Shown: positions 3,986 to 45,070 of the stretch, in pieces
Layout of the letters: the number at the start of each line of letters is the position of its first letter
Position numbering within the stretch: the stretch's first letter is position 1
Virus record (IMG/VR): IMGVR_UViG_3300042317_001400
Location: 1-50,234 of that record
Direction: 5' to 3' (one strand)
Origin: a virus
DNA: 50,234 nt
The notes under the pieces: model-generated
What the model saw: only the letters and a program-made list of their open reading frames with translations
What the model was told of the DNA's origin: nothing
Database searches by the model: none
Translations under genes and position numbers: made by a program

Positions 3986-3993
3986 AGGAACGC
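3986..3993 (-). promoter_or_regulatory. GCGTTCCT start-associated element
   Basis: GCGTTCCT ends 6 nt before ATG 3979, within TAGCGTTCCT. The same TAGCGTTCCT occurs before the gene starting at 27079. Confidence 0.55.
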
Positions 3994-3998
3994 TAGAC

Positions 3999-4027
3999 TT
4001 GACAGGCGTTCCTGAGTGTGTTATTGT
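3999..4027 (+). promoter_or_regulatory. Sigma70-type promoter, leaderless
   Basis: TTGACA (3999-4004), 17 bp, TATTGT (4022-4027), then 6 nt to ATG 4034. The predicted transcript begins at or next to the start codon. It overlaps the upstream side of the divergent gene ending its leader at 3993. Confidence 0.85.
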
Positions 4028-4033
4028 TCGACT

Positions 4034-4306
4034 ATGATTACTTTTGGACAGCACAAGTTTCCCAATCTTGCCACTGGCGAACAATGTGCGTGGGAGCCCA
4101 CCGTACGATTTGTCTGCCTCGACCGGCGAGTGATGATTGCGGCCCGCACACGCGTCGAGGGCAAATGGGCCGCATACTGCAAGAACGTTCCCGGCATGAA
4201 GCATGAGGTGGAGGTGGAGGTCGTGCTCGAGCACGGAACCAAGGTTTCAGAGGCTGTGGCGCGCGTGCTGTTCCCAGACTTCGAAGAAGTGCCGTACGCC
4301 AAGTAA
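4034..4306 (+). CDS. Hypothetical early protein
   Basis: A 90-residue protein beginning MITFGQHKFPNL. No family was recognised. It has a mixed basic and acidic character with a run of alternating Val and Glu around residues 58-66. The start is fixed by the leaderless promoter 6 nt upstream, although an ATG 18 nt earlier lies inside the promoter. It leads a short plus-strand operon with the next two genes, and the following ATG is 4 nt past its stop codon. Confidence 0.7.
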   Translation: MITFGQHKFPNLATGEQCAWEPTVRFVCLDRRVMIAARTRVEGKWAAYCKNVPGMKHEVEVEVVLEHGTKVSEAVARVLFPDFEEVPYAK

Positions 4307-4309
4307 CTC

Positions 4310-4519
4310 ATGATACCAGAACTATCTGCCATCACGCGGCTTGGAGCCGTCATCAAGCTGGAGCAACCTGCAGACGTTGCACATCACCTCGCCATCATCG
4401 CAGCCGGATTCGATGTGTTGCGCTCTCGTGGTGACATTAACACTGAGCGCCTAATACTGGCCAAAGAATCCATTAACTTTTTACAAACTGCATTTCCTAC
4501 AACACATGACCACCACTGA
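4310..4519 (+). CDS. Hypothetical small protein
   Basis: This 69-residue, mostly helical protein begins MIPELSAITRLG. No domain was recognised. It starts 3 nt after the previous stop codon, and its last 14 bp overlap the next gene, so translation is probably coupled along the three-gene plus-strand operon. Confidence 0.65.
   Translation: MIPELSAITRLGAVIKLEQPADVAHHLAIIAAGFDVLRSRGDINTERLILAKESINFLQTAFPTTHDHH
4493..4498 (+). promoter_or_regulatory. TTTCCT variant of the start-associated element
   Basis: GCATTTCCT, one base longer than the GCATTCCT element, ends 7 nt before ATG 4506. The leader then runs ACAACAC, similar to the CAA-rich leaders at 12905 and 46955. Confidence 0.35.
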
Positions 4520-5195
4520 ACCAACAACCGGCATCATCCTCCCTGACAACCCAAACCAGGTTTACCGCCTGACCAAGATCACAACCGCCTCCGGACAGGT
4601 GCTGCATCAAGGCGGTATCTTCACCCTGATCTTCACCGTCCCCAAAGGCTATGCCCTCTCGGAGGAAGAGGTGCGCATTGCATACGGTGTCACCCCGGCA
4701 GACTCGAAGAAGTTCAAACACTTCTCCATGGCGAACAAACAGGATCGCCTCATTCTGAAGCCTGTGGAGGGGGCCGTGGAAAACAAGCATATCCGTCACG
4801 GCAAGTGTTATGCTCTCTACGAGAGCTATCATGGGTTTCTGCGCCACCTTGGGGATGATAGCGAACCGATTGCCATGGCACCGGTTAAAACCACCCCGCC
4901 GCCGAGTACGGAGCCAACCACTTTCACCCCGTACACCAGCACCGAGAGCGTTGTCGCGATCATGGCGGTCGGCCAGCGCTGGAAAACCAGTATCCGACAT
5001 GGTACTTCTGATGAGGTTGTGCACATCCGCATTGGCACTATGAGTCCAGGAGGTGCAAACGGCGCTGGCACGTGCACCTGCGAGTACGGAGCCATGGTGC
5101 AGGGAGAACTTGCCTGGTGTCCGTCTGATCATCAAGTCACGTACAACGGGTTCGCACTTGTTATCGTGAATGGGAAGGGAGGGATGCTCTCGTGA
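4506..5195 (+). CDS. Hypothetical protein, probably truncated by a tandem duplication
   Basis: A 229-residue protein with a Thr/Pro-rich linker around residues 128-148 between two compact parts. The C-terminal part has clustered Cys (CTC) and a Trp-Cys pair. No family was recognised. It ends at a TGA lying at the junction of two exact 26-bp tandem copies (5164-5189 and 5190-5215). Because 26 is not a multiple of three, removing one copy would open the frame for about 38 more codons into the next gene. The C-terminus is therefore likely a recent truncation, or the duplication is an assembly error. Confidence 0.7.
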   Translation: MTTTEPTTGIILPDNPNQVYRLTKITTASGQVLHQGGIFTLIFTVPKGYALSEEEVRIAYGVTPADSKKFKHFSMANKQDRLILKPVEGAVENKHIRHGKCYALYESYHGFLRHLGDDSEPIAMAPVKTTPPPSTEPTTFTPYTSTESVVAIMAVGQRWKTSIRHGTSDEVVHIRIGTMSPGGANGAGTCTCEYGAMVQGELAWCPSDHQVTYNGFALVIVNGKGGMLS

Positions 5196-6024: not shown

Positions 6025-7059
6025 TCAGTCTGCTTGGGCTGTAGCAGTACCCTCGCGGAACCTCGCGTGATCTTCTTCCAACTCAGCCAGCAGTTCTGGA
6101 CTGAGCACCCCGCGCGCATCCGTCGTCCGGGTAATAGCGTCATCATCTTCCACTGCGCGTAGCCGCGCAAACTCAGCTTGCATCTCCGGTGAGAGGTCTG
6201 CAATAAGCTCACCCACTGAAGCGTACTTCTTGCCGGTCGCCTGCGCCTTCGTACGTGCCACTGGCCGCTTAAGGCCCGGAATGGTGCTGATGGGCCGTTC
6301 AATGGGCTTGGCATAGTCCTTTCCCTCGAGGATGAAGATGCACTCGTTTGTTCCGTCCGACCCCTTGCCCTCCCGGTGGCGGTTGACGGTATCCCCAAAG
6401 TTGTGGACAGCCACGAAGTCCTCCGGGGCGATGAACTCGGTCACGAAGACCACGTTATTCTGTGACAGCTGCCGCGCGAAGTTCCAGAAGCCGACGCTGT
6501 CAAAGGCTGCATTGGTTTGCCCGGTGCGATTGGCATATGGCGGGTCGAGGTAAAAGATACCACCCTTCATGTCGGCATACGCACTATACTCGCAGTGAAA
6601 CACGTCGCCTGGTCCGACCCCAGCCTGCTTCAGCATGGCTACACGCTTGGCCAGCAGGTTGCGCAGGTTCTTGGCGAAGTCAGTTTTCCCCTTGGGGTCT
6701 CGAGCATAGGTAGCGAAGAATTTGCCAGCGAAGGCCATACCGAAACCAACAGCTGCTGTCAACGGATCAGCTGGATCTCGCGCACCCTGCTTCAGCGCCG
6801 TGTACATCTCCTCGGTGATCACCTCCGGTGGCAGCCACCCATCAAGACATGCGTGCCACATGTTCACCAGTGCCAGGTTGTTATCACTCAGAACCAACTC
6901 CTGTGGTGCGTTGAGCGTGGTGGCGATAGCTGCAACCTGACATGCACTACCCATGGCTCCGCAGAACGGCTCGATGAACGGCTTTCCCTGCCCAAGATAA
7001 GGTTTGATGTAGCCCGCAATGATTGGACCTTGCCGGTGCTTTCCGCCGAGGTACCTCAT
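6025..7059 (-). CDS. dam: Dam-type N6-adenine DNA methyltransferase 1 with an SSB-like C-terminal tail
   Basis: A 344-residue class D12 methylase. It begins MRYLGGKHRQG, has an AdoMet-binding EPFCGAMGS motif near residue 31 and a catalytic DPPY motif near residue 172. It should methylate adenine in a short DNA target. Beyond the methylase core are about 80 extra residues. Their end carries VLSPELLAELEEDHARF, nearly identical to VLSPELLADLEEDRAKF at the N-terminus of the phage SSB (39711-41009). The start at 7059 has AAAAGGAG upstream and overlaps by 4 nt the stop of a 9-codon leader peptide. A paralogue without the tail lies at 8487-9209. Confidence 0.85.
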   Translation of the reverse strand: MRYLGGKHRQGPIIAGYIKPYLGQGKPFIEPFCGAMGSACQVAAIATTLNAPQELVLSDNNLALVNMWHACLDGWLPPEVITEEMYTALKQGARDPADPLTAAVGFGMAFAGKFFATYARDPKGKTDFAKNLRNLLAKRVAMLKQAGVGPGDVFHCEYSAYADMKGGIFYLDPPYANRTGQTNAAFDSVGFWNFARQLSQNNVVFVTEFIAPEDFVAVHNFGDTVNRHREGKGSDGTNECIFILEGKDYAKPIERPISTIPGLKRPVARTKAQATGKKYASVGELIADLSPEMQAEFARLRAVEDDDAITRTTDARGVLSPELLAELEEDHARFREGTATAQAD

Positions 7060-7085
7060 TGATGATCTCCTTTTAAGTGTGTCAT
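7056..7085 (-). CDS. Nine-residue leader peptide of dam1
   Basis: ATG at 7085 opens MTHLKGDHQ, and its TGA overlaps the dam1 ATG as ATGA. The ATG lies 6 nt after a GCATTCCT element, the same spacing as at full-length genes. The dam1 Shine-Dalgarno lies inside this mini-frame, which suggests translational coupling. Confidence 0.45.
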   Translation of the reverse strand: MTHLKGDHQ

Positions 7086-7091
7086 ACTTGA

Positions 7092-7099
7092 AGGAATGC
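7092..7099 (-). promoter_or_regulatory. GCATTCCT start-associated element
   Basis: Within TAGCATTCCT, it ends 6 nt before ATG 7085, the start of the dam1 leader peptide. Confidence 0.5.
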
Positions 7100-8486: not shown

Positions 8487-9209
8487 TTACCGGCGCATGC
8501 GCACCAGATGCTCTGCCGTGCCGTCCGTACCCTTCCCTTGGTGATGGCGGACGACGGTATCTCCGAAGTTGTGGACCGACTCGAAGTCGTCGGGAAAGGT
8601 GAACTCGGATACAAAGACGACATTCTTCATGGAAAGCTCTCGGGCGAAGTTCCAGAATTGCTCATGGTTAAACGCAAACGTGCTCTGCTTAGTGCGTCCT
8701 GCATACGGCGGGTCCAGATAGAACACGGCGTTCTCGGTCCCGGCGTACATTTGAAAATCGCCGTGAATGAGAAAGAGCTGTTCGGTACTGCGGCGTCGAA
8801 GTGCAGCAACCTTGCGCATGACTCCGTTCCGGGACTGGAGGCAGTGATCTCCGCGCGTGGTAGTGCGAGCATAAGAGGAAAAGTATGTTGCCGCAAACGA
8901 GCACCCGAACCCGCAAAATGCCGTCACCGGGTCCTTAGGGTCCTGACGCGTCTTGATGTCCGCGTACTGCTCGGCGGTCATGCTGGACGGCGGTTCCCAT
9001 CCGTGCAGGATGGCCTGCTGCCACATCACCATGAGCGGACCGTGCTGGTCGGACAGCGCCATCGGACCGTCGTAGAGCGCGGCCACCCGGCTGGCCGACC
9101 CCATGGCTCCGCAAAACGGCTCGATGTAAGCCTCTGCATCGGCCAGGTGCGGCTGAATAATCTCGGCAATACGACGTCCTTGCCGGTGCTTTCCGCCGAG
9201 ATAGTTCAT
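8487..9209 (-). CDS. dam: Dam-type N6-adenine DNA methyltransferase 2
   Basis: A 240-residue paralogue of dam1. It opens MNYLGGKHRQGRR, has EPFCGAMGS near residue 33 and DPPY near residue 166, and shares NFARELS and VHNFGDTVVRH segments with dam1. It lacks the ~80-residue SSB-like tail and stops soon after the catalytic domain. The start at 9209 overlaps the stop of the upstream gene (ATGA) and has AAAAAGG just before it; a frame open further upstream belongs to that neighbour. The two Dam copies probably differ in sequence target or timing. Confidence 0.8.
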   Translation of the reverse strand: MNYLGGKHRQGRRIAEIIQPHLADAEAYIEPFCGAMGSASRVAALYDGPMALSDQHGPLMVMWQQAILHGWEPPSSMTAEQYADIKTRQDPKDPVTAFCGFGCSFAATYFSSYARTTTRGDHCLQSRNGVMRKVAALRRRSTEQLFLIHGDFQMYAGTENAVFYLDPPYAGRTKQSTFAFNHEQFWNFARELSMKNVVFVSEFTFPDDFESVHNFGDTVVRHHQGKGTDGTAEHLVRMRR

Positions 9210-9660: not shown

Positions 9661-10491
9661 ATGCTCATGATCGAGTGTAGCCAATGTCATATCTCAAAGA
9701 ACGATAGCGAATTCAAACGCGGCAGCCGTCAGTGCCGCACCTGCCGGTCCGAGTACGCAAAGCTATGGAAACAAACCAACCAGCTTCATGTCACCAGTTA
9801 TAATGCTCGACGGCATACGGATGCGCCCGGAAAAATGGCAGCAGCGGCGCGACTGTCTCGAGCTGAACTTAAAAAAGTTGCGATTGCTCGCTACGGCGGC
9901 ACATGCGTCTGCTGCGCAACAAGTGATGCACGCGTGCTGTGCATAGACCACGTGAATGGCGACGGCCACAAGCATCGCGAGGATATTGGTGCTGGGGGCA
10001 TTCTGTACTGGCTCAAGGCGCACAATTACCCACCTGCTTTCAGGCTTCTCTGCTTCAACTGCAATATTGGCGTGGAACGTGTACCAGACCTTGTGGCATC
10101 GCTTGCGGCATGGAAGTTAAACCCGCGCATCGAGGATGTGTTGCGCATCGAGCTTGTATGTGGCAACAAGCTGGAGAAAGACCGCATTCGCCAGCGCAAT
10201 GTGAGGGCTACACTTCGACGATCGGTGATTGCGGCTTATGGTGGTTGTTGCGCGCACTGCCTAGAGACATATCCGCACTTTTTAACTGTCGATCACGTGC
10301 GTAATGATGGTGCAGCACACCGCATAACAACACCGGGCAGCCGAGAGTTGCTAAAGCTGGTTCAAGGTGCCGGATTTCCGAACACCTTTCAGTTGCTGTG
10401 TTGGAACTGCAACTTCCTGAAGTGGCTCAGTACACGTCCGTCTGGTTGCCCGATCCTGAACCAGAATCTCGCCGTGGCTGCCGCCGCCTAG
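9661..10491 (+). CDS. Double-HNH zinc-finger protein (probable homing endonuclease) 2
   Basis: A 276-residue paralogue of the protein at 1778-2497 with the same plan: a zinc ribbon (CSQC, then CRTC) and two HNH-like modules. Module 1 has YGGTCVCC, CIDHVNGDGHKH and RLLCFNCN. Module 2 has YGGCCAHC, TVDHVRNDGAAH and QLLCWNCN. The start is ATG 9661 or ATG 9667. It is on the plus strand between minus-strand genes, and its 3' end overlaps the 3' end of the gp41-like gene by 65 bp. This fits a free-standing mobile endonuclease. Confidence 0.75.
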   Translation: MLMIECSQCHISKNDSEFKRGSRQCRTCRSEYAKLWKQTNQLHVTSYNARRHTDAPGKMAAAARLSRAELKKVAIARYGGTCVCCATSDARVLCIDHVNGDGHKHREDIGAGGILYWLKAHNYPPAFRLLCFNCNIGVERVPDLVASLAAWKLNPRIEDVLRIELVCGNKLEKDRIRQRNVRATLRRSVIAAYGGCCAHCLETYPHFLTVDHVRNDGAAHRITTPGSRELLKLVQGAGFPNTFQLLCWNCNFLKWLSTRPSGCPILNQNLAVAAAA

Positions 10492-11857
10492 GTGGTGCGT
10501 CTTCTTCGGAGTCTTCAAAGTCGGGATCAGACGTGTCGACAGATGTCATCGCCATTCTTTGGTAGTCTATACGACAGTTAATAATGCGATCTCCGGCGTC
10601 ATTGCGCATGGCAACTGGCGCTATGCGCATCTCGCCACGGAATTTCTCTTCTTCGGTCTGACAGAGGGCAAGCACCATATCTGCGACACCCACTCTTTCA
10701 AATGCCTTGGACATGTGGCTCATGCTGATCCGGCGGCGACCCACGGCTTCGCGCGTAGCGCGGCAGGCCGTCCAGCATGCAAGGTTATACTCCTGCGGAG
10801 AACACAGGCTGCGCAGGTCTTCGGTAATATCTACGGCCTCGAGGTAGTCCTTCTCCCGCTTCCGAGAGCTCTTCATCAGGTCAAGATAGTCTACGATCAA
10901 CAGGTCAATCTTGATGCCACGCTGCGACCACATCTGATCCAACCACTGACGGATTGTATCACCGGAGCAGGTCTTCGTCTTGAACTGCTTAATAAAGAGG
11001 TCGTTGTCGCCGCAGATGATGTCCATGCGCTTGTGCAGCACGTTACTGAAGTGCTGCGGGTCCTGCAGCATCTCATCCTTGGTCATCATGCTGCACCGCA
11101 GATCGAATCGCGTCCCCACCAGCCGTTCGGACAACTCCAGCGTCACATAAGCCACGTTGCACCCACCAGCCGACTCAGTGAGAGCGTAGTACGCGAAATT
11201 CATCATTGTTCCGCTCTTGAAGTGCTTGGGGAGCGCCAGCAGCACCCCGAGTTCACCTCGCTGGATGCCGCCGCCAATGGCCGCGTCCAGGTGGGAGAGG
11301 CCGGTGGGAATGCGGGGGTTAACCGCCGGGTTGGTCGCCTCCATGATGCGCACGTCCGTGTCCTTCCGCCAGATGTGTCCGACCTCAAAGGTATCCTGTC
11401 CAGTCAGCAGGGCCGTACGAAATTTATCTGGTAGCGTTGGATCATACTCTCCGGATATGAGTCCGTCCCGAGCCTCCATGACGGCGTTTCGAAGGGCCAC
11501 GAACCGCACGAACTCCCGAACCTTGGCTGAAATGTACTCGTGATCTGTAAGCGGGGTCTCCTTCAACTCCTGCAGCTTCTGCAGTAGCGCTCGGCGCTTG
11601 CGCAATTCCACCTCACTGCTGCCGTCCGGGTGGCGGAGCCGAATGTACTCAGCCATGACCGCGTCCGTAGGCAGCACCTTCCACTTGCGCCAGTGGTCCT
11701 GCACCATGGCTGACAAGGTTCCGGATGTTGCGGTGGTCAGGTACTCAGGCTTCCAGTACCCGTCATGAGCAGCCATGGCTCCGGGGTGCAGCCACAAGTA
11801 AGCGACAGCTAGGTCTTGGAACTTATTGTCCCATGGCGTTACAGGCTGATCGGACAT
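10427..11857 (-). CDS. DnaB/gp41-like replicative DNA helicase with a degenerate P-loop
   Basis: This 476-residue protein has an N-terminal helical domain and a RecA-type motor. The Walker A position reads LLALPKHFKSGTM (206-218). Both conserved glycines of GxxxxGKS are replaced (Ala208 and Phe213), while Lys214-Ser215 remain. Walker B is IDLLIVDYLDL (317-327). The C-terminus is Arg/Asp/Gly-rich and disordered. The gene order, with primase and a sigma-like gene upstream, fits the T4 gp41/gp61 pair. The start at 11857 follows the previous stop codon by 2 nt. Confidence 0.75.
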   Translation of the reverse strand: MSDQPVTPWDNKFQDLAVAYLWLHPGAMAAHDGYWKPEYLTTATSGTLSAMVQDHWRKWKVLPTDAVMAEYIRLRHPDGSSEVELRKRRALLQKLQELKETPLTDHEYISAKVREFVRFVALRNAVMEARDGLISGEYDPTLPDKFRTALLTGQDTFEVGHIWRKDTDVRIMEATNPAVNPRIPTGLSHLDAAIGGGIQRGELGVLLALPKHFKSGTMMNFAYYALTESAGGCNVAYVTLELSERLVGTRFDLRCSMMTKDEMLQDPQHFSNVLHKRMDIICGDNDLFIKQFKTKTCSGDTIRQWLDQMWSQRGIKIDLLIVDYLDLMKSSRKREKDYLEAVDITEDLRSLCSPQEYNLACWTACRATREAVGRRRISMSHMSKAFERVGVADMVLALCQTEEEKFRGEMRIAPVAMRNDAGDRIINCRIDYQRMAMTSVDTSDPDFEDSEEDAPPRRRQPRRDSGSGSGNQTDVY

Positions 11858-11860
11858 GCG

Positions 11861-12199
11861 TCAAATGTGCAGCGTAACCTGCTTCTTCAGAAAGGCTTTC
11901 TTGAAGAAATGTCGCCCTAGCTCCAGTGCACCATTCTCCGGCAGGTGCGTAGCCTCATCTGGGGAAGTTACGAGCGTCACCTTGATGCGCCCAGCAGCCG
12001 CGTCGAGGCTGCCTTTCAGATACCTTCCGTCAGGCGTGGAGACGATGTACTGACCGCCGCGCTTCTGCTTCTGCGTCCCATCCAGCAGCGGCTTGAGCGC
12101 TTCCAGAAATCGCAAGGTCACGGCTGGCTCGGCCAGCGTCATAGCCTTCTGATATCGCTTGCCTTCTGCTTCAATTTGCGTCCATGTTGGTGGTTTCAT
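11861..12199 (-). CDS. Hypothetical protein in the helicase-primase operon
   Basis: A 112-residue protein starting MKPPTWTQIEAEG; no family was recognised. It is basic, with a C-terminal FFKKAFLKK run. I chose ATG 12199 rather than a GTG 42 nt upstream because a CGTTCCT element ends exactly 6 nt before it and the GTG would overlap the preceding small gene. The stop codon is 3 nt from the gp41-like start. Confidence 0.65.
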   Translation of the reverse strand: MKPPTWTQIEAEGKRYQKAMTLAEPAVTLRFLEALKPLLDGTQKQKRGGQYIVSTPDGRYLKGSLDAAAGRIKVTLVTSPDEATHLPENGALELGRHFFKKAFLKKQVTLHI

Positions 12200-12205: not shown

Positions 12206-12213
12206 AGGAACGA
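12206..12213 (-). promoter_or_regulatory. TCGTTCCT start-associated element
   Basis: The element ends 6 nt before ATG 12199. It is flanked by ATC and GAT, which could pair around it. Confidence 0.5.
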
Positions 12214-12905: not shown

Positions 12906-13068
12906 GTGTTGTGGTTGTGGTGTAAAACGGGCTGTCAGGGCAACTGTGATTTGTGCAAACCTCGCCGTACATCACGACGTCGCTCATGCTCTGTCCGCAC
13001 GTCTGACAGGTTTCCGGCTCCTGCACCATCGTGGTGTGGTCGCCAAGCTGAACTTCTATGATTCTCAT
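12898..13068 (-). CDS. Small zinc-binding protein
   Basis: A 56-residue protein starting MRIIEVQLGDHTTMV, with CQTCG and, 19 residues later, CTNHSC, suggesting a single zinc site. ATG 13068 overlaps the stop of the upstream sigma-like gene (ATGA), and its own stop overlaps the start of the next gene. This dense coupling supports it as a real gene. Confidence 0.6.
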   Translation of the reverse strand: MRIIEVQLGDHTTMVQEPETCQTCGQSMSDVVMYGEVCTNHSCPDSPFYTTTTTHD

Positions 13069-14087
13069 ACGGCGGCGACGGTGAGAGCATTGCCCGGACG
13101 ATGCTGTCGCATAGCGTCATAAATATCGGATTTGTGCTTCATCATGAATGATACGGCCTCGGTCCAAAGAATGTCAAAATCCTTGCGTCCTATTTGCAGC
13201 TTGTTGCGCACTCCCACCTTCGGGTCCTTGCCATCGTAATGTCCGTAAATGCTGCAAAGCAGGATGCGCTGCACCATGATGTTGGGTGCCTGACTGACGA
13301 TTGGCATCAAGATGTCGCGCAGGTTCACAGCCCCATCGGCCTCGGCAATGTCCGTGCCGCCGTTATCCTGATCCATTGACGGTGGAGCGGCATTCAGTTC
13401 AATGACGGGAGCGCGAAGAATGTCGCCACGGCACCGAGACTTAACGTGCTTCCGGTAGTGTCCCATGCAAGCATTTTTGCAGCTGATGTACAATGCCTTG
13501 CGGAACGATGCCGTGGAGCCGTAATAAGATGCATTGCGCTTCAGATTCGGCACAAACTTCTTCAGGACCACGGTTTCGAATAGGTGCTGCTCCATGTCCT
13601 TGTCGTCCCATCCGATGCGAGCATAGACGTTGTGGTTGGACGGATAGTACTGACTGACCACGCGCGGCACTACAGCCTTGGAGATTTCGATGATCAGGTT
13701 GTACGTGAGCGTGAACTTTTCCTTTTCGTCCCATGAGATCACCTGCGTGCGTGCCGACTCCAGCAGGTATGCAAGGATACCGTCCCCGTTACCCATACGA
13801 GATGCAACCATGGCAATGGCCTCCCGCCTGGTGCGTGCCGTCACCTGTTCTCGCCGGGTGTCCCCAGCAGTGGTTTTAAACGTTACCGCATACTTGTAGT
13901 ACGTCCGGGCTCCGGTGGTATCACCAATGTGCTGGCTGAACGCGGCGTCCACAGCTTGGATGAAGTCGTTTTGATCGCGCACGTCGCGCGTGGCATCGCG
14001 CCATGCGCGAATCAGGCCGGTGCAGTCTTCGATGTCTGCGTACATGGCGCGCAGATCATGGTGTTCAAGGTTAATGGTGTTGATCAT
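13065..14087 (-). CDS. Sigma-factor-like protein 1 (gp55-type candidate)
   Basis: A 340-residue protein. Around residues 165-225 it has the spacing of sigma region 2: an acidic helix (WDDKDMEQHLFETVVL), then SFRKALYISCKNACMGHYRKHVKSR, comparable to the core-binding and -10-contacting helices of T4 gp55 and other phage sigma factors. The C-terminal third has a short basic segment (VGVRNKLQIGRKDF). The assignment rests on motif spacing only. It lies between the primase and gp41-like helicase genes. A second sigma-like gene is at 17485-18636, and a novel start-associated motif is widespread in this window. Confidence 0.45.
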   Translation of the reverse strand: MINTINLEHHDLRAMYADIEDCTGLIRAWRDATRDVRDQNDFIQAVDAAFSQHIGDTTGARTYYKYAVTFKTTAGDTRREQVTARTRREAIAMVASRMGNGDGILAYLLESARTQVISWDEKEKFTLTYNLIIEISKAVVPRVVSQYYPSNHNVYARIGWDDKDMEQHLFETVVLKKFVPNLKRNASYYGSTASFRKALYISCKNACMGHYRKHVKSRCRGDILRAPVIELNAAPPSMDQDNGGTDIAEADGAVNLRDILMPIVSQAPNIMVQRILLCSIYGHYDGKDPKVGVRNKLQIGRKDFDILWTEAVSFMMKHKSDIYDAMRQHRPGNALTVAAV

Positions 14088-16294: not shown

Positions 16295-16783
16295 TTATTC
16301 CGGCCAACTTGCCGCAGAGTAGTCTGCAATTCCGTTGTCGTCGGTCGGCGCGGTGCCGTCCTTGCCGAATCCGGACTTGCCGATCTGCTCGATGGTGATG
16401 TTGCCCTGGTACTGCGCACCAGAGTACATGGCATCGAGGCGAAGTGCGCCACTGGACGTGGTGCCGTAGCCGGTGAGCTTGAGGTACTTCTTGGTCGGTG
16501 TGAGCGCGACCGTCTGTTGTCCGCCGGGCGCGACCGCGAGATAGGAACCGCCGGAGATGACAGCCCATGCGTCGGCGACGCCACGGTCGTCAGACGCCCA
16601 GACTTTGAAGTTCAGGATGCTAGCTGCCTTGGCCCCGGCGGGGATGTTGGCGCGCTCCATGAGCGACTGAACGAGGAGGCTGACTTTGCCGACCTTGGGC
16701 TCGACTGCGAGGATGCAAAGGTCTGCGACGTTGGCGACGCCCGAGGGCACCGCGAGTTGTCCGAGTTGGAGTATTCCGGCCAT
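16295..16783 (-). CDS. Probable virion structural protein
   Basis: A 162-residue protein starting MAGILQLGQLAVPSG, Gly/Ala/Val-rich and beta-type, with LRLDAMYSGAQYQGN and a C-terminal GKDGTAPTDDNG turn region. No family was recognised. Its composition and position next to the 15632 and 16796 genes suggest a tail or fibre accessory protein. Confidence 0.5.
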   Translation of the reverse strand: MAGILQLGQLAVPSGVANVADLCILAVEPKVGKVSLLVQSLMERANIPAGAKAASILNFKVWASDDRGVADAWAVISGGSYLAVAPGGQQTVALTPTKKYLKLTGYGTTSSGALRLDAMYSGAQYQGNITIEQIGKSGFGKDGTAPTDDNGIADYSAASWPE

Positions 16784-17484: not shown

Positions 17485-18636
17485 CTACTCGTCGAGTTCG
17501 TCCGTATCCGGTGCGACCCCGTCCGGATACACCGGGCGATCCTCCAGTACCCCGGCGTGCTGGTTGGCACAGGTGTCGTCGTAGATTTCCTGCACACGTG
17601 CTACAGGAATTTTGAGCCGCCGAGACAGGTCTACCAGCCCGTTTGGTGTGACATCCTCCTTCATGTGCTCATGAATGAGCCTGATGGTGGAAATCTGTCG
17701 AACCTGCGTCGGCGATGGGAACTTCACCGTAATTCCAGCCAGTACGGCCATGAGCTTCTGCGTTGCAGCAATGCCAATGGTGTTGACGATGTCCGGCAGG
17801 AAGCTGAACTTGTACGCTGCCCGGAGAACGTCGGCTTCCCCGAGCGGACTGTCGTAGTGGTTGAGCACGCACTGCCGGACCGCGCCGAGGGACCAGTCTA
17901 GCAGGAACCGTGCATCATCTACCTTGACCGGATACGCCGTGACGATGGTGCGTAGCACCTGTTGGCGCTTATCATTGGCTCGACCACGCAGTATGAGGCC
18001 GACGCAATAACGGATGATCTCAATGATGATCGGCTCCTTCCACCTGGCTTCGAGCGCACCAACCTGCTTGCGAATCTCCTCCTTTGTCTCCTTATCAAAC
18101 CGCTCGTTGTAGTGGCACCCGTCGAACGCATCCAGCGGCGTCTGGTGCGCATGCTCGTAAAGGATACGATCTGACACTCGCTTCTCGGCGGTAATGTACG
18201 ACAGGGCCGCATTTCTACAACATGCACTTACGTACGAGTACAACGGTTTGGCCCCCGGTGATGGGTCCCAGTTCATGACCCACCCCTTGAAGTGCAGGAA
18301 CATGTTGTTCCGAATATCAGCAAACGGTGCGGACAGATGAAATTTGTGCGCCCGAATAACCGTGTCGATCAGATTACTGGTGTGTTCAATGATGCGCTGG
18401 TACGTTTTTGCAGTCTGGTGCTGCTGGTAGTGTCTGCACAGTGTGGACACGTAATCATTATCGAAGATGTGGTGTTTCTTCTTTTTGGCAGCGTCAATGT
18501 CGGCAACAGACTGTTCCGGCACGTCTGGGACGTCCTCGATAGATGGCGTACTTCCGGTAATATGCATAAAGGTTACCCGCAGGATCTGGTGTTCCTGAAG
18601 GATGACATCGACAACAGACATAAGGAACGGCAGCAT
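17485..18636 (-). CDS. Sigma-factor-like protein 2 (gp55-type candidate)
   Basis: A 383-residue protein. Residues ~100-165 match the order of sigma region 2: FADIRNNMFLHFKGWVMNWD, PLYSYVSACCRNAALSYI, TAEKRVSDR. Phage late sigma factors such as T4 gp55 show the same aromatic FxxYxxxxxRNA pattern. The remainder is helical, with a possible HTH at LVDLSRRLKIPVARVQEIY near residue 335, where sigma region 4 would be. ATG 18636 or ATG 18621 may be the start. It overlaps the divergent RuvC gene at its 5' end. It is the stronger of two sigma-like candidates. Confidence 0.55.
   Translation of the reverse strand: MLPFLMSVVDVILQEHQILRVTFMHITGSTPSIEDVPDVPEQSVADIDAAKKKKHHIFDNDYVSTLCRHYQQHQTAKTYQRIIEHTSNLIDTVIRAHKFHLSAPFADIRNNMFLHFKGWVMNWDPSPGAKPLYSYVSACCRNAALSYITAEKRVSDRILYEHAHQTPLDAFDGCHYNERFDKETKEEIRKQVGALEARWKEPIIIEIIRYCVGLILRGRANDKRQQVLRTIVTAYPVKVDDARFLLDWSLGAVRQCVLNHYDSPLGEADVLRAAYKFSFLPDIVNTIGIAATQKLMAVLAGITVKFPSPTQVRQISTIRLIHEHMKEDVTPNGLVDLSRRLKIPVARVQEIYDDTCANQHAGVLEDRPVYPDGVAPDTDELDE
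18589..18596 (+). promoter_or_regulatory. GTGTTCCT start-associated element
   Basis: GGTGTTCCT ends 5 nt before ATG 18602. The same GGTGTTCCT with 5-nt spacing is found before 30489. Confidence 0.5.
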
Positions 18637-20281: not shown

Positions 20282-20296
20282 GTGTAATACTTAGTT

Positions 20297-20665: not shown

Positions 20666-20673
20666 AAGAACGC
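20666..20673 (-). promoter_or_regulatory. GCGTTCTT variant start-associated element
   Basis: It ends 6 nt before ATG 20659. The same GCGTTCTT variant is at 26552-26559. Confidence 0.4.
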
Positions 20674-23931: not shown

Positions 23932-23939
23932 AGGAATGC
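23932..23939 (-). promoter_or_regulatory. GCATTCCT start-associated element
   Basis: TAGCATTCCT, with the TAG being the stop codon of the GIY-YIG gene, ends 7 nt before ATG 23924. Confidence 0.5.
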
Positions 23940-25925: not shown

Positions 25926-25933
25926 AGTGATAA

Positions 25934-26512
25934 TTAGGGCTTGGGATCAAGTAACTCTGGCAGCAGCCAGTCAAATTCGGTTTTGGCGGCTGGGTTCTCT
26001 TTATCAAAGCTGATCCAGCAATGACTCCAAGAACTACGCTTACCATTCACCTTGATGCACGGTGTTAGCACCCGAATGGCGTTGGGGCGCACCCCACCTG
26101 CCCCTGTCCATTGGCGGGAGCGGCGCAGCTGCCCCAAGTTCTGCAATGAATATAAAAAGACAACCTTGCGCCGGGCGATTCTGAGAGCCTTGGCTAGAAA
26201 GGCATCAAACAGCGCATACGGCGGATTGGTAACGACATTATCAACAGCGTGGTCGTCCGGGTACTCGAGAAAGTTGGCAATTGGGTAACCACCGCCGTAG
26301 TCGCGAATGTCTGCGCCAGTGGTAGTGAACCCATGGGTTGCAAACACCTGCAGAATGGCACCGTCCCCGGCGCATGGGTCAAAGATATCTCCTGTGAAAC
26401 GTTCCACGGCCAACAGCTTGAGCGTGGCTACCGGGTCGGTTGGAAAGAAGTCGTTTGTCTCCTTGAATTCCGTAGACCTTCCGGAAATTTTGGCAAGGCC
26501 AGGAAATAACAT
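25934..26512 (-). CDS. N6-adenine DNA methyltransferase (NPPY type)
   Basis: A 192-residue protein with AdoMet motif I IFDPCAGDGAIL (43-54) and catalytic TNPPYALF at 95-102. The spacing fits small adenine methylases found in phages. There is no restriction partner nearby. Start ATG 26512 is 7 nt from a GCATTCCT element in a divergent pair with the SWIB gene. Confidence 0.8.
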   Translation of the reverse strand: MLFPGLAKISGRSTEFKETNDFFPTDPVATLKLLAVERFTGDIFDPCAGDGAILQVFATHGFTTTGADIRDYGGGYPIANFLEYPDDHAVDNVVTNPPYALFDAFLAKALRIARRKVVFLYSLQNLGQLRRSRQWTGAGGVRPNAIRVLTPCIKVNGKRSSWSHCWISFDKENPAAKTEFDWLLPELLDPKP

Positions 26513-26519: not shown

Positions 26520-26527
26520 AGGAATGC
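26520..26527 (-). promoter_or_regulatory. GCATTCCT start-associated element (divergent pair)
   Basis: It ends 7 nt before ATG 26512. Its divergent partner for the SWIB gene lies 25 bp away at 26552. Confidence 0.55.
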
Positions 26528-26551: not shown

Positions 26552-26559
26552 GCGTTCTT
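26552..26559 (+). promoter_or_regulatory. GCGTTCTT variant start-associated element
   Basis: It ends 7 nt before ATG 26567, facing away from the element at 26520-26527. Confidence 0.4.
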
Positions 26560-26857: not shown

Positions 26858-26891
26858 GCGCCGGGAGCCCGCGTCCCGGCGCTGTCTTTAT
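26858..26891 (+). terminator. Intrinsic terminator of the SWIB gene
   Basis: A 9-bp stem, GCGCCGGGA (26858-26866) with TCCCGGCGC (26874-26882), a 7-nt loop, then TGTCTTTATTT. It also lies at the 3' end of the convergent zinc-ribbon gene. Confidence 0.85.
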
Positions 26892-27085: not shown

Positions 27086-27093
27086 AGGAACGC
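27086..27093 (-). promoter_or_regulatory. GCGTTCCT start-associated element
   Basis: TAGCGTTCCT ends 6 nt before ATG 27079. Short arms AGC and GCT flank GTTCCTT and could pair. Confidence 0.55.
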
Positions 27094-27926: not shown

Positions 27927-27955
27927 ACGTTAGCACAGACACGAACGCCTGTCAA
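27927..27955 (-). promoter_or_regulatory. Sigma70-type promoter, leaderless
   Basis: TTGACA (27955-27950), 17 bp ending TGC, TAACGT (27932-27927), 6 nt to ATG 27920. The TAA stop of the upstream gene is one base before the -35. Confidence 0.85.
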
Positions 27956-30461: not shown

Positions 30462-30469
30462 AGGAATGC
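30462..30469 (-). promoter_or_regulatory. GCATTCCT start-associated element (divergent pair)
   Basis: It ends 6 nt before ATG 30455. The plus-strand partner at 30476-30483 is only 6 bp away. Confidence 0.55.
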
Positions 30470-30475: not shown

Positions 30476-30483
30476 GTGTTCCT
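30476..30483 (+). promoter_or_regulatory. GTGTTCCT start-associated element (divergent pair)
   Basis: It ends 5 nt before ATG 30489. GGT and ACC flank the element and could pair. Confidence 0.5.
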
Positions 30484-31717: not shown

Positions 31718-31737
31718 AGAAATAACTAAGTATTAGC

Positions 31738-35456: not shown

Positions 35457-35491
35457 TCCAATATGTAGCCAACAAAGGCTAATTATAAGGA

Positions 35492-38562: not shown

Positions 38563-39711
38563 TCAGTCCTCATCGTCATCTTCATCTACCGACACCACGC
38601 CATCGCGTTGCATGATGCGGTTCTGCCATTTTACAAGGGCCGCGTCGATAACTGGCATGACCACGTCGCTATTCCAAAATTCCGGCCACTGCGTCATATC
38701 AAATGTCTCACCGAGGCCATCCAGCGTATATCGACCGCCGGAGACCTTGAGCAGCTTGCTGCGCTTGAGCTGGTAGAAGACTGACCACATGTCGGAGAAC
38801 CCGGACCGTTCGCCTCCCGTGCCACGGAAGAGCAACGGCATCTCCACGACCCGCAGCGGCATGTCAAGCTTATTCTTGATGGTCTTGAACCCAACAAGCA
38901 GGCCGTCCGGTGCTGCCTTGTCCGCACCCTTGCCACTGTCGGCCTTGAACCGGAACTGCCCCTTGTTCATGGTGCGGATGCGATAGTCAGCAGCGAACTT
39001 CAACGCCCGACCTCCGGGACTTTCTGGCTCGGCTCCTGCCATTGCGTTTGGCTTGTCGCGGATCTGGTTCAGAACCACGAGATGTGCGTTTGACATGGTC
39101 AGCGGGTTGCGAATCTTCTTCATGGCGCGGGAGAGGATGCGGGCTATTCCCATCATCGTGTGCTCCTCCAGCGTTTTGTCGGCCTCCTCATCCGTTTCCA
39201 GGGCGGCAAGCGAGTCTATGCCAATCAGAATCGGCGTGGTCTCGCCAGACTCATGAATCTCGGTGACCATTTTTTCGATGGAGCGGAACAGCGACTCCGC
39301 CGTACGACTCCACATGATCGACATTCGACCACACGAGAATATCGGCACTGATGCCAGTTTCTTTTCATCGAACGCCTGCTCCTGATCAAACACAAGGCAG
39401 ATACCGTCCTCGTACTGTGTAAGGAAGCGCTCGCAGATCTTCTGCAGGAGCTCGGATTTGCCCGTGCGCTCTGGACCATAAATCTCCGTGATGCGCCCGC
39501 TTCCGAACCCTCCACGTTCAGCACCTCGCCCACCGAGGATCGTATCCAGCAGGCGCAGGCCCGTAGAATAGAAGTGCTTGGGTGTATAGAATCGGTCCAC
39601 GGCCTTTCCCTCGCCGAGAATGTGGCTATACTGCGTGTCATCATCATGCTTGTCCAATATGCGACGAAGCGTGTCCTGCGGCGAAGCTGCCGTGGCTTTA
39701 GTCTTGGCCAT
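38563..39711 (-). CDS. uvsX: UvsX-like RecA-family recombinase
   Basis: A 382-residue protein. Walker A is GPERTGKS (79-86), a Walker B-type strand ILIGIDSLAAL lies near 162, and LVVLNQIRDKPNA near 212 corresponds to the DNA-binding loop 1 region. The C-terminus is acidic (DEDDDED), as in UvsX/RecA, where it modulates DNA access. It catalyses strand exchange with SSB and a UvsY-type mediator, both found upstream in the same run. Its start overlaps the SSB stop by 1 bp. Confidence 0.9.
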   Translation of the reverse strand: MAKTKATAASPQDTLRRILDKHDDDTQYSHILGEGKAVDRFYTPKHFYSTGLRLLDTILGGRGAERGGFGSGRITEIYGPERTGKSELLQKICERFLTQYEDGICLVFDQEQAFDEKKLASVPIFSCGRMSIMWSRTAESLFRSIEKMVTEIHESGETTPILIGIDSLAALETDEEADKTLEEHTMMGIARILSRAMKKIRNPLTMSNAHLVVLNQIRDKPNAMAGAEPESPGGRALKFAADYRIRTMNKGQFRFKADSGKGADKAAPDGLLVGFKTIKNKLDMPLRVVEMPLLFRGTGGERSGFSDMWSVFYQLKRSKLLKVSGGRYTLDGLGETFDMTQWPEFWNSDVVMPVIDAALVKWQNRIMQRDGVVSVDEDDDED

Positions 39712-41009
39712 TACTCAGCGGGTTCGGGTTCCAGTTCCTGAGATGCTTCACCACCACCTTCTGCCGGGGTGGCGTCTTCCTGCGCCTGCAATGCCTTCAG
39801 GCGTTGCATCAGTGCCGGGGCCGCTGCTTTGGTAGTGCCCACGGGGCGCGTAGCGGGTGCTGCGGCTGGCGTTGCGGCTGGACGGGTGGTCGGAGGTCCA
39901 GCGGGACGGGCTGCGGCAGGACGGGCAACCGCTGCGGGTCCAGCAGGACGGGGTCGCGCGGCTGGTGATTGGGCCGCTGGTTCGACATTGTCCATTGGCA
40001 CGTCGTCCTCGACACCATCAGGCACGTCGTCGCCACCCGACTCAGGGGCTTGGGCGGGAACAGGGGCGGGACGGGCAGCGGGACGCGGGGCGGCAGCTGC
40101 TGCCGTGGCGGCGGGACGTGGGGCAGGGCGGGCCGCTCCTGCGGCTGGACGGGCACCACCTGTCGGAGGTCCAGCGGGGCGGGTACCAGCGACTGGCTTC
40201 TGCTGTGACTTATGTGCCTCATCGTTCCGCATATCGGCGTCTTCGGCACCGGCTTGAACCGCGTCCACCATGGCGTTGTAGCAGTTCACCATCTCATCAT
40301 AATCCGGGAGGCGGATGTTGTCGAGCTTGATGCGCTTTTCCATTAGATCGTTGATGGTGGACTCGTCGATCTGCTCGCCATCCGTGTACCAGAGTGCCAC
40401 CGGCTGCAGCAGGGCGATGGTGCTGTACGATGCTCGACCGCCCTTTTTGGACTTGGTGATAGAGAAGTCAATACCGGTGTACGGGTCAAGGATGTCCGGA
40501 CCGTTGTTAATGAAGTTATTCTCGATCACGCTGAAGACCGTGCTCGGTGCCGAATATGGTCGGACGATGGGGCTGGCATCATCACGGGCCATGATGTTCA
40601 TTGAATAGCTGATGCGGGGCAGGGAGTTGCTGATGATGCGACCGATGCGCTTGAGGGCCATCTGGTCCACGCCACCACTGCTGCGAACGTTGCTGCGCAG
40701 CTCCGTCTCGTATTCGCGCCACCCGGCGAGACCGTCACAGAACGGGCACGGCGCACCTGTCGTAATCTTGGCCGGACATTCCATGGGCAGCCGCCGCCCC
40801 TCCACCACCACCCAATGCTGGGCGTGAGCCACGTAAAATTTCTGCTTGCTCTTTCCGAACATGCCGGGCAGGATGCGGATGGCATGTGGGCGGTTATCGT
40901 CCGGGATCTTGTAGTTATCACCAGCAGATGTGCTGAATTTGGCGCGATCTTCTTCGAGATCGGCGAGGAGTTCTGGGCTGAGGACGGGGCGTTGGGTTGG
41001 AGGAGGCAT
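39711..41009 (-). CDS. gp32-like single-stranded DNA-binding protein with a long Ala/Pro linker
   Basis: A 432-residue protein. The zinc ligands His65, Cys78, Cys88 and Cys91 have exactly the spacing of T4 gp32 (64, 77, 87, 90), and the core runs to about residue 270. It is followed by a ~140-residue Ala/Pro/Arg/Gly-rich linker and an acidic C-terminal tip (QELEPEPAE), as expected for protein recruitment. The N-terminal VLSPELLADLEEDRAKF recurs at the C-terminus of dam1. The leader contains ACAACAACAC and no Shine-Dalgarno. Confidence 0.85.
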   Translation of the reverse strand: MPPPTQRPVLSPELLADLEEDRAKFSTSAGDNYKIPDDNRPHAIRILPGMFGKSKQKFYVAHAQHWVVVEGRRLPMECPAKITTGAPCPFCDGLAGWREYETELRSNVRSSGGVDQMALKRIGRIISNSLPRISYSMNIMARDDASPIVRPYSAPSTVFSVIENNFINNGPDILDPYTGIDFSITKSKKGGRASYSTIALLQPVALWYTDGEQIDESTINDLMEKRIKLDNIRLPDYDEMVNCYNAMVDAVQAGAEDADMRNDEAHKSQQKPVAGTRPAGPPTGGARPAAGAARPAPRPAATAAAAAPRPAARPAPVPAQAPESGGDDVPDGVEDDVPMDNVEPAAQSPAARPRPAGPAAVARPAAARPAGPPTTRPAATPAAAPATRPVGTTKAAAPALMQRLKALQAQEDATPAEGGGEASQELEPEPAE

Positions 41010-41088
41010 ATGACGGGCTGGTATGTGGTTGGTGTGTTGTTGTAAGGCGACCTTTGGTCGAATAACTAGGAACGCCCAAATTCTGCAG

Positions 41089-42557: not shown

Positions 42558-42561
42558 GTCG

Positions 42562-43044
42562 CTAATCTTCTGAAGACCCAACGGGCCGGTATACTCGTAC
42601 TTGCTCGGCGCGTGCGTTCGCGCCAATTCCGACCAGCATGTCCTTCCGGGCGATGAAGGACTTCAGTGCAGCGTTCAGAATGGCTGCTCGTTCATCCGCC
42701 GCCGCTGCCGCATCCTCCAGTTCAACAACATCTGGATCGAGACATATAGCATTGGCAATCATGTCGTTAGTAGGCTTCGACCCAGCAGCTGCAAGTGATT
42801 GCTTCTTTTCGAAGAATTTCTTGGCGCGCAGCCGCTCCAACACGCGGTTTGCCGTGGCCGCGTCTGCCTGCGCCCGTGCCTCGGCATACGAAATCGTTGC
42901 CTGCCATGCCGCATGACTCTCGTACTCCGCCTCAAGGTTCATCGGGTCGATGCCGATGATGAGGGCGAACGGAATCGGCTGGCCCTCTGCCGTTTGCAGC
43001 TGCGGTAGGTCCTCCGGACGCGGAAGGAAATGCTTGTTAATCAC
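42562..43044 (-). CDS. UvsY-like recombination mediator candidate
   Basis: A 160-residue, highly helical protein. The middle (LEAEYESHAAWQATISYAEARAQ) and later ATANRVLERLRAKKF and ERAAILNAALKSFIARKDML have the charge pattern and length of T4 UvsY, which loads UvsX onto SSB-coated DNA. Similarity is in pattern only. Its place in a run with uvsX and ssb supports the idea. It starts at GTG 43044 with a GCGTTCCT element 6 nt upstream, flanked by a 5-bp inverted repeat. Confidence 0.45.
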   Translation of the reverse strand: MINKHFLPRPEDLPQLQTAEGQPIPFALIIGIDPMNLEAEYESHAAWQATISYAEARAQADAATANRVLERLRAKKFFEKKQSLAAAGSKPTNDMIANAICLDPDVVELEDAAAAADERAAILNAALKSFIARKDMLVGIGANARAEQVRVYRPVGSSED

Positions 43045-43050
43045 ACGGCA

Positions 43051-43058
43051 AGGAACGC
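43051..43058 (-). promoter_or_regulatory. GCGTTCCT start-associated element
   Basis: It ends 6 nt before GTG 43044. ACGGC and GCCGT flank GTTCCTT and could form a 5-bp hairpin. Confidence 0.55.
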
Positions 43059-43060
43059 CG

Positions 43061-44563
43061 TTACATGATCACGCTGTCTGCGAACCACTTTGGGGCAAGG
43101 TAGCCCCACTTGTTCCAAAACTTACCAAATCCGCTGTCGATGAGATAACAGTCCGCGTAATCATCAACGTTGCGAATGGATCGGCCCGTACCCTGAATCA
43201 GTGTCTGCATTGTCATCCACCCGTACCATTCCGGATCTTCTTTCATGCGCGCAGCAACCCAACTGTCGCCAAGGTACGCGTATGGTACCTTGGCGAAGAT
43301 GGTGAATCGGCTAAGGTCGTCGAACAAGTCCAGCCCCTCCGTAATAGATGGACTCATTAGCACCGTTGGTTCCGAACTCCGGAGATGGTGATCGATGAGG
43401 TTTTGCCGATCCGTGTCGCGAGCATGAACGAGAACTCGCCCGGTGTGGTGGCGCAGCATGGTGGAAAGCTGCTCCGTGAGCTTAAACGAGTGTGAGTGGA
43501 TGATGCCCTTGTGCCCCTTGTACGCATCCAGCAGCTTCACGATCCTGTTCGCGATTGCAGGCAGCGAGGCCGTTGACGCACTTCTGGACATGTCTCCGGC
43601 TGGTGCGAACCTCACCGTTCGGTTTGCTGTATCAAATGGTGACGGTAAGTCAATGCGCTCGGCATCGGCAATGCCGACCCACCTCTCCAGCAGCCGTGGC
43701 TCTGGAAGCGTTGCACTGGCGAGCAGGATGCGGCGTCCCAGCGGTTCCATATATGTGCTGTAAAGCCGTTGTGCGGTTAACGGTCGGAGCGTGAAGGTCA
43801 TGAGGTCGCCATCCTCTGAGAATACCCACGTCTCCTGCTCGTGCGACTCGAGGAAGTACTCAATGGACTGCGACAACATCCTTAGCTTGACCAGGTTGTG
43901 CGCCATGTCCGGGTCCACGGCGTCTCCGCCAACGCTGCACTCCTGTGACATTTGTACAATGCGCACGCTGACCACGGTGAGCATACGCTCCATGAATGGT
44001 ACGGAGGTAGTCACATCCGTAGGCCACGTCTCGCGAAATTCCAGCAGCTTGATGATATCGAGGGTGACCTTGACGGCAGCAGCACCAATTAGGTTGGCCT
44101 CAAGCGCGTGTCCTTCATCGCAACACAACCATTCCCCGCTTGGCAGTTCAAACTCAGCCTGTCGCATGGCCGCAAATAACCACGCGTAGTTGGTGACGGC
44201 GGCTCGCGCGCCGAAGAATGTGCCGCGCGCAGATCGATACGGACATGCTTCTGCGTTGCAGCCAGCCGCAGCTCCGGACTGACAGTCCGCTCCGCTGAAG
44301 TGGTCGCATGGGTAGTTCTGCCGCCCCTTGAGAAGAGGCATGTCCGGCCAGTCTCGACGATATTGGTCCTGCAGCTGCTTGAGCGGCGTAAGAATAATGC
44401 CTCCGTCTGCTTCGGCGACGGTGACAATGATGGGTGACTTGCCAACGCCAGTTGGGGCATTAACCAGCAACGTACGCGCTTCAGACCGTTCAGCCCACTC
44501 AAGTACCTCGGCCTGCTGTGGGCGCGGAGGTGACTGCATTACCCAATGATCAAGGTAACTCAT
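43061..44563 (-). CDS. DinG/XPD-like SF2 DNA helicase
   Basis: A 500-residue protein. The P-loop is APTGVGKS (36-43), four cysteines at 86, 94, 102 and 107 fit an iron-sulfur cluster, DEGH box is at 149-152 and QGTGRSIR motif VI lies near 467. These are marks of the XPD/DinG family of 5'-3' helicases, which unwind DNA or R-loops. The start at 44563 overlaps the stop of a 42-residue gene (ATGA); longer open sequence upstream belongs there. Confidence 0.8.
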   Translation of the reverse strand: MSYLDHWVMQSPPRPQQAEVLEWAERSEARTLLVNAPTGVGKSPIIVTVAEADGGIILTPLKQLQDQYRRDWPDMPLLKGRQNYPCDHFSGADCQSGAAAGCNAEACPYRSARGTFFGARAAVTNYAWLFAAMRQAEFELPSGEWLCCDEGHALEANLIGAAAVKVTLDIIKLLEFRETWPTDVTTSVPFMERMLTVVSVRIVQMSQECSVGGDAVDPDMAHNLVKLRMLSQSIEYFLESHEQETWVFSEDGDLMTFTLRPLTAQRLYSTYMEPLGRRILLASATLPEPRLLERWVGIADAERIDLPSPFDTANRTVRFAPAGDMSRSASTASLPAIANRIVKLLDAYKGHKGIIHSHSFKLTEQLSTMLRHHTGRVLVHARDTDRQNLIDHHLRSSEPTVLMSPSITEGLDLFDDLSRFTIFAKVPYAYLGDSWVAARMKEDPEWYGWMTMQTLIQGTGRSIRNVDDYADCYLIDSGFGKFWNKWGYLAPKWFADSVIM

Positions 44564-44688
44564 AGCTGTATTATTAGGTGAACCATGGCTAGCTTCAGCC
44601 CATCTGCAGGTGTCGCCTCCAGCAGCCGCAGAGGGGCATCGTTGGCCGCAACCTTGAAGTCGCGCTCTACCCATGGTGCGGGGTTCAT
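44560..44688 (-). CDS. 42-residue hypothetical protein
   Basis: MNPAPWVERDFKVAAND, then APLRLLEATPADGLKLAMV. ATG 44688 overlaps the stop of the upstream membrane-protein gene (TGATG), and its own stop overlaps the DinG-like start. Double overlap supports it; the function is unknown. Confidence 0.5.
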   Translation of the reverse strand: MNPAPWVERDFKVAANDAPLRLLEATPADGLKLAMVHLIIQL

Positions 44689-45056
44689 CAAATGGTGTCT
44701 GGATTCTTCGGCTTAAACGGTGCAGGTTTTCCGGCTCCAGGTTTGGAGAACAACGACAGCATCACAAGGCGCGTTGCATCCAGCAACTCCGCCATCTGGG
44801 CGAATGCTATCGTGTAACTTATTAGCCGCGTCATCATCATGAAGGCGGTCAGACCAAACCCGAACAGCATGACCAGGACGGCGATGACTCCCCACGCTAT
44901 CCACGCCCCGGTGAGCGCGCCAACGAAGCAGGCAACGCCTGACAGGACGACGTGCGTAATGAAGATGAAGATCTCCAGCCCTACGAACAGTCGCATGTTT
45001 TCAACGTTGGTGGAGTTTGCGCCGATATCGGCAATTTGGGCTTCTTCTTCAGGCAT
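44688..45056 (-). CDS. Two-span membrane protein
   Basis: A 122-residue protein with hydrophobic segments at about 23-50 (FVGLEIFIFITHVVLSGVAC) and 54-75 (AWGVIAVLVMLFGFGLTAF), an amphipathic helix after that and a Lys/Pro-rich C-terminal tail. The start is set by GCGTTCCT 6 nt upstream. No family was recognised. Confidence 0.65.
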   Translation of the reverse strand: MPEEEAQIADIGANSTNVENMRLFVGLEIFIFITHVVLSGVACFVGALTGAWIAWGVIAVLVMLFGFGLTAFMMMTRLISYTIAFAQMAELLDATRLVMLSLFSKPGAGKPAPFKPKNPDTI

Positions 45057-45062
45057 GTGCGG

Positions 45063-45070
45063 AGGAACGC
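45063..45070 (-). promoter_or_regulatory. GCGTTCCT start-associated element
   Basis: It ends 6 nt before ATG 45056. GCG and CGC flank TTCCTC. Confidence 0.55.

Follow-up and report, generated by a model that had tools for sequence, protein, structure and literature searches.

A GCRTTCCT element upstream of start codons as the probable -10 of a leaderless promoter class in an uncultured T4-like phage

We analyzed a virus record of 50,234 bases, IMGVR_UViG_3300042317_001400 (its full length is referred to below as the window), in which the octamer GCRTTCCT and its close variants stand a fixed 5 to 7 nucleotides upstream of many start codons. With a probability of about 0.8, we regard GCRTTCCT as the -10 of a phage-specific promoter class that gives leaderless mRNA, one of three such classes in this phage lineage and here called class 2. 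Its genes for UvsX-like, DnaB-like, and UvsW-like proteins, a gp32-like SSB, a baseplate hub, and a connector identify it as a piece of an uncultured T4-like myovirus. All records used here are fragments, and the genome is incomplete; a tested stretch of the window closely resembled none of 50,697 phage records.

A preliminary description of this DNA had listed 13 start codons preceded by the motif on both strands, and direct reading found all 13 sites, 10 on the minus strand and 3 on the plus strand. The exact octamer stands before eight of them (starts 3979, 7085, 23924, 26512, 27079, 30455, 43044, and 45056), and variants were found at the other five: GTGTTCCT at 18602 and 30489, GCGTTCTT at 20659 and 26567, and TCGTTCCT at 12199. 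The spacer between motif and start codon measures 5 nucleotides (N5) at two sites, N6 at eight, and N7 at three. The two divergent pairs described earlier, 26520/26552 and 30462/30476, were also correct, and an unlisted site, GCATTTCCT-N7, precedes start 4506.

The window contains 13 copies of GCRTTCCT, as opposed to 3.57 expected, and none of 100 shuffles reached 13. We ranked pentamers by the copies that end 5 to 7 nucleotides before the ATG or GTG of an open reading frame (ORF) of at least 50 amino acids, taking the window together with 15 kb of a sister contig, IMGVR_UViG_3300021519_000015 (G1), which is approximately 95% identical to the window and extends 15 kb further. TTCCT ranked first of 1,024, with 18 of 118 copies in this register (nominal p = 4e-6). 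Scanning with the pattern of the class 1 (early) promoter recovered more DNA of this lineage (G002, G004, G005, G006, G008, and G009); these contigs overlap each other and the window at approximately 90 to 100% identity and carry tail sheath, capsid, head protease, portal, and baseplate genes. Within 114 kb of same-lineage DNA nonhomologous to the window, GCGTTCCT was the top octamer of 55,283 (6 of 12 copies; nominal p = 9e-6), and over the union of approximately 164 kb GTTCCT was the top hexamer (14 of 92; nominal p = 6e-9). Reversed and reverse-complement control patterns gave no N6 peak.

The upstream limit of the element was read from orthologous starts of different phage variants, which were aligned with each other. 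At G8/G9 21526 and G5/G6 13607, the DNA is identical through the motif and the spacer and unrelated beyond approximately -17 to -20. At G5/G6 11940, the motif is identical, the spacer has two changes, and the DNA differs beyond the same distance. The window and G1 follow this pattern in part at 27079 and at 23924, where the upstream DNA of the sister is nonhomologous beyond approximately -30; at 43044, the replacement of DNA lies directly at the motif. Because the upstream DNA has been swapped while motif, spacer, and gene stayed nearly or wholly identical, the functional unit of class 2 ends near -17, and no -35 is needed. From -20 to -40 the aligned pairs share no conserved element, and they have no TANNNT at -10. 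These alignments, together with the shared N6 register, agree with the earlier statement that GTTCCT occupies the place of a -10 with no -35. Class 1 promoters, by contrast, are conserved through -37 in variant pairs, a difference that is only suggestive because upstream replacement is absent from the class 1 pairs.

An unbiased scan of the approximately 164 kb found three classes of elements ending 5 to 7 nucleotides before ATG. Class 1 has the form TTGACA-N17-TAWNNT. Its -10, TGCTANNNT, was found in this register in 23 of 74 copies (p = 3.5e-21), and 29 of 33 TTGAC-N18-TANNNT sites lie 6 to 8 nucleotides from a start codon. Since a -10-type element at this distance is diagnostic of leaderless genes (PMC3160421), class 1 reads unmistakably as a leaderless, sigma70-like promoter, which host sigma70 would recognize early in infection. 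Class 3 is CTANNTA, with 15 of 60 copies in register (p = 9e-13). It resembles the T4 late box TATAAATA, to which it is closer than class 2 is, and it appears to be a T4-late-like promoter of virion and lysis genes that is also leaderless. In the window, class 3 sites were found at 20288..20294 (CTAAGTA, minus strand, N6, gene 19526-20281), 31726..31732 (CTAAGTA, plus strand, N5, gene 31738-31992, ahead of the head-tail connector gene 31996-32724), 35462..35468 (CTACATA, minus strand, N5, gene 33279-35456 with a peptidase/endolysin-like domain), and 25931..25937 (CTAATTA, minus strand, N5, tail collar fibre-like gene 25131-25925). Within this three-class scheme, GCRTTCCT would be a -10 element at approximately -14 to -7, and class 2 transcription is predicted to begin at the start codon or within 1 to 2 nucleotides of it, giving leaderless mRNA, with a few copies giving leadered mRNA.

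We compared these classes with more distant relatives, G11, G12, and G13, which a capsid-protein scan had found at 72, 65, and 54% capsid identity, respectively. Class 3 was seen in all three, before head protease, connector, and tail genes, with sites also in G8 and G6. The counterpart of class 2 in G11 is AGCRTTCNT at N6 or N7 before starts; the seventh base of the motif is C in the lineage of the window and T, A, or G in G11. Over the three relatives, 7 of 46 copies of GCRTTCNT stand before ATG (five at N6 and two at N7), all seven in G11, and reversed controls gave 0. One of the G11 sites precedes the ortholog (53% identity) of window gene 26567, and another precedes the ortholog of a DinG-like helicase gene whose operon in the window is likewise headed by a class 2 site.

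The genes behind each class suggest when it is used. Class 2 precedes genes for a nucleoside deoxyribosyltransferase, a RuvC-like resolvase, methyltransferases, and a GroES-like protein, as well as the DnaB and helicase operons. Those class 2 genes that could be annotated belong to DNA metabolism and not to the virion, and the others are of unassigned function. Class 3 precedes endolysin, tail collar, connector, and head protease genes. From these functions, class 2 is probably the middle class, serving DNA and nucleotide metabolism and small proteins of unassigned function, and class 3 would serve late virion and lysis genes. Because a separate, T4-late-like CTANNTA marks the latter, a late label suits class 2 less well than a middle one. 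Both labels had been offered by the preliminary description, which had also weighed a new type of initiation site; a phage-specific promoter for leaderless mRNA, middle rather than late, is the best supported of its proposals, and the initiation site and paired arms are not borne out.

Individual class 2 sites in the window illustrate this gene content. On the minus strand, GCGTTCCT was found at N6 at 3986..3993 (start 3979, nucleoside 2-deoxyribosyltransferase-like gene 2963-3979), 27086..27093 (gene 26888-27079), 43051..43058 (gene 42562-43044, with a GTG start), and 45063..45070 (gene 44688-45056, by eye a small membrane protein, followed by the DinG-like helicase gene 43061-44674). GCATTCCT was found on the same strand at 23932..23939 (N7, gene 23547-23924), 26520..26527 (N7, DNA methyltransferase gene 25934-26512), 30462..30469 (N6, gene 30288-30455), and 7092..7099 (N6, start 7085). 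Minus-strand variants are TCGTTCCT at 12206..12213 (N6, gene 11861-12199, followed by the DnaB-like helicase gene 10427-11857) and GCGTTCTT at 20666..20673 (N6, gene 20297-20659). The plus-strand sites are all variants: GTGTTCCT at 18589..18596 (N5, RuvC-like resolvase gene 18602-19405) and 30476..30483 (N5, ORF 30489-30662), GCGTTCTT at 26552..26559 (N7, gene 26567-26842, whose G11 ortholog has GCATTCAT-N6), and GCATTTCCT at 4490..4498 (N7, gene 4506-5195).

At the listed site before 7085, the motif is present, and the start opens an ORF of only 9 codons ahead of a methyltransferase gene that starts at 7059. Within 7056-7099, the stop codon of this ORF runs into the start of that gene (D12 type, 6025-7059), which has its own AAGGAG, and leaderless and Shine-Dalgarno initiation are possibly coupled there. 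The window contains a second D12-type methyltransferase gene, 8487-9209, and part of the two genes aligns at approximately 75% DNA identity.

Since class 2 lacks a -35, host sigma70 is unlikely to read it; most likely another specificity factor does, much as gp55 recognizes the 8-bp TATAAATA of T4 late promoters. A candidate divergent phage sigma factor is encoded at 17485..18621 on the minus strand, with a weak gp55-like region 2 match at residues ~117-154. In a local search it was the best of 2,622 ORFs against a gp55 profile (E = 0.026, a weak match; the next unrelated ORF had E = 8.4), and it was the only match, again weak, to phrog_234 in PHROGs (E = 0.036). This gene and its G1 copy gave the only late-sigma-like matches. 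Should the product be a gp55, its target might be class 3 instead of class 2. A second gene, 13065-14087, looked sigma-like by eye and was rejected, as no profile backed it. Foldseek with the model of the first sigma-like protein returned nothing at E ≤ 0.001, with sigma subunits among the weak matches. In G11, a small early-type gene on the minus strand (24787-25080; L079 4787-5080) encodes a sigma region 4-like helix-turn-helix, with PF04545 above its cutoff; its product is possibly a transcription switch protein.

The reader might instead belong to the host, either as an alternative sigma factor or as host RNA polymerase redirected by a phage activator or anti-sigma factor, and we give this a modest chance of being right. 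Neither a phage sigma factor gene nor a phage RNA polymerase gene was identified with confidence in the fragments, and T4 middle promoters are indeed served by host sigma70 with MotA (PMC1524935). However, a MotA-type scheme retains the TATAAT -10, whereas class 2 has a different sequence in its place. Moreover, conservation of the element follows the phage lineage, a T4-late-like element occurs alongside it, and a gp55-like candidate, however weak, exists.

An asymmetric, stoperator-like repressor site in early promoters and at gene starts would account for a further observation. Right after TTGACA, class 1 spacers carry RGCGTTCGT at -29 to -21, nearly the class 2 motif and odd for a sigma70 spacer; GCRTTC was found exactly in place (-28 to -23) in 11 of 29 class 1 promoters of the window and related contigs, and GCGTTC at this fixed position is what such an operator would resemble. 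Stoperators are asymmetric sites scattered over a phage genome (PMC9283540). Nevertheless, a repressor site need not match the exact -10 register, no promoter apart from the motif is seen at class 2 genes, and the gaps between divergent copies vary (3, 6, 12, and 24 bp), so that there is no dimer geometry and a palindromic operator was rejected. We consider an operator improbable.

Class 1 promoters with the spacer element are at 3999..4027 (TTGACA-N17-TATTGT, plus strand, N6 to start 4034, with GCGTTCCT in the spacer), at 27927..27955 (minus strand, gene 27225-27920, a leaderless promoter with the consensus spacer GGCGTTCGT), and at 50127-50155. A further class 1 promoter, at 48539..48567 (TTGACA-N17-TAACGT, minus strand, leadered gene 47192-48454), also has GCGTTCCT in its spacer. 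The spacer element may bind a shared DNA-binding protein or may be a second, embedded start. That one phage protein reads (A)GCRTTC both in the class 1 spacer, for shut-off or reuse, and at the class 2 -10, for middle starts, is an idea we think rather unlikely; if true, a single element would run the early-to-middle switch through a sigma-like protein that needs no TA at -12/-11.

A signal in the mRNA, acting at -14 to -7 as a Shine-Dalgarno substitute or a regulator site, would fit the tight spacing to start codons and the Shine-Dalgarno sequences, which in this phage are barely above background frequency. However, the same spacing is common to two other, plainly promoter-like classes, and class 2 and 3 copies also lie 12 to 90 nucleotides upstream of leadered genes. 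Before the SSB gene, GCGTTCCT stands 58 nucleotides upstream in the window and GCGTTCTT 82 nucleotides upstream in G11; the window copy, at 41063..41075 on the minus strand, overlaps a class 3 CTAGTTA ahead of gene 39711-41009. Class 3 copies lie 12 to 26 nucleotides upstream of sheath, tube, and wedge genes. The elements thus seem to act without an adjacent start codon, which points to promoter action on the DNA. Because the elements also lie far from starts, upstream of leadered genes, and share the register of true promoters, we rejected a translation signal as very improbable. Flanking arms that could pair had been noted earlier at several copies; they are perfect at 43044 in the window and absent at the same gene in G1, and this feature was discarded as not conserved. 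Least credible of all is a nonregulatory junction or target of mobile gene cassettes or recombination: exchange between variants does stop just upstream of several copies, but copies also occur without exchange, the spacing relates to the start codon, class 3 shows the same exchange, and the breakpoints arise because selection keeps a gene together with its promoter.

Several points weigh against class 2 as a phage-specific -10. Its base pattern has T at -10 and -7 and lacks the TA at -12/-11 typical of most bacterial -10s. Exact copies at 41068, 48549, 50164, 4006, and 7542 lie off the listed spacing from any gene start, and among the three relatives class 2 was seen in G11 but not in G12 or G13. 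The enrichment p-values are nominal and drawn from many k-mers, although the top rank recurs in independent DNA. Gene function is the one line of evidence that points to middle timing. As for a reader, the gp55-like candidate is a weak match, the fragments contain no Sigma70 region 2 match, and AlphaFold2 models of the two sigma-like proteins were unusable (predicted local distance difference test scores of 47 and 41).

T4 late promoters have an 8-bp box at -13 to -6 and no -35 (PMC1524935, PMC2988020). Class 2 resembles this gp55/gp33/gp45 system in having an 8-bp -10 element without a -35 in a T4-like phage, with a weak gp55-like candidate in the window. In contrast to TATAAATA, however, GCRTTCCT is not AT-rich, has no TA at -12/-11, and does not match the T4 box, its genes look middle rather than virion, and its mRNA is predicted to be leaderless. 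With T4 middle promoters (MotA box and TATAAT), class 2 shares a likely service to DNA-metabolism genes between early and late, but it has no Mot box at -30 and no host-type -10, the -10 itself being the specific element. The host sigma70 pattern, TTGACA with TANNNT, is found in class 1 only. The TA-led leaderless genes of Actinobacteria and Deinococcus-Thermus, with TANNNT approximately 10 to 12 bp before the start, share with class 2 the -10 distance, few Shine-Dalgarno sequences, and the lack of a leader that is predicted for class 2, but the class 2 element is not a Pribnow box. Late promoters of phage AR9 (AACA-6N-T(A/G)) likewise have a short phage-specific element, a start approximately 6 to 7 nucleotides downstream, and no -35; they are read by a phage multisubunit RNA polymerase and give mRNA leaders of 26 to 491 nucleotides (PMC5312081), whereas class 2 mRNA is predicted to be leaderless and no gene for such a polymerase was found in the present fragments of an incomplete genome. 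Against the stoperators of cluster A mycobacteriophages, which are asymmetric repressor sites repeated over the genome, class 2 was seen to be repeated and oriented but to sit in promoter register.

Some observations lie outside class 2. The leaders of genes 39711-41009 (SSB), 47192-48454, 16295-16783, and L049 11705-13150 are rich in A and C, appear unstructured, and contain no Shine-Dalgarno sequence; these genes probably encode abundant proteins (SSB, capsid, and others). The class 1 pattern also drew in G3, G7 (67% G+C), and G10 (39% G+C), which were set aside as unrelated at the DNA level and without class 2 sites. In the unrelated 39% G+C phage contig, G010 (which contains L032), a long gene array at approximately 32.8 to 43.7 kb has TTGACA...TATATT approximately 6 nucleotides before each ATG, which suggests another phage with mostly leaderless early-type genes. 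When 84,980 genomes were scanned for a host by means of the class 1 pattern, the sole matches were five operators in Clostridia, unrelated to the phage and containing GCATTC/GAATGC dyads. The Clostridia metagenome-assembled genomes L068-L072, unrelated to the phage, have in common a promoter, TTGACANGCATTC-N4-GAATGCTATAAT, whose spacer holds an inverted repeat that is probably a repressor operator.

Taken together, the three classes can be read as a code, apparently for early, middle, and late genes, in a group of uncultured T4-like phages with largely leaderless genes, and this code could be used to predict the timing of genes of unassigned function. Because class 2 keeps few of the usual -10 bases, its reader would represent a new promoter specificity. 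A published survey (PMC3160421) itself notes that it can overlook leaderless genes whose signal is not a Pribnow box, and class 2 indicates that surveys limited to the Pribnow box do miss leaderless genes.

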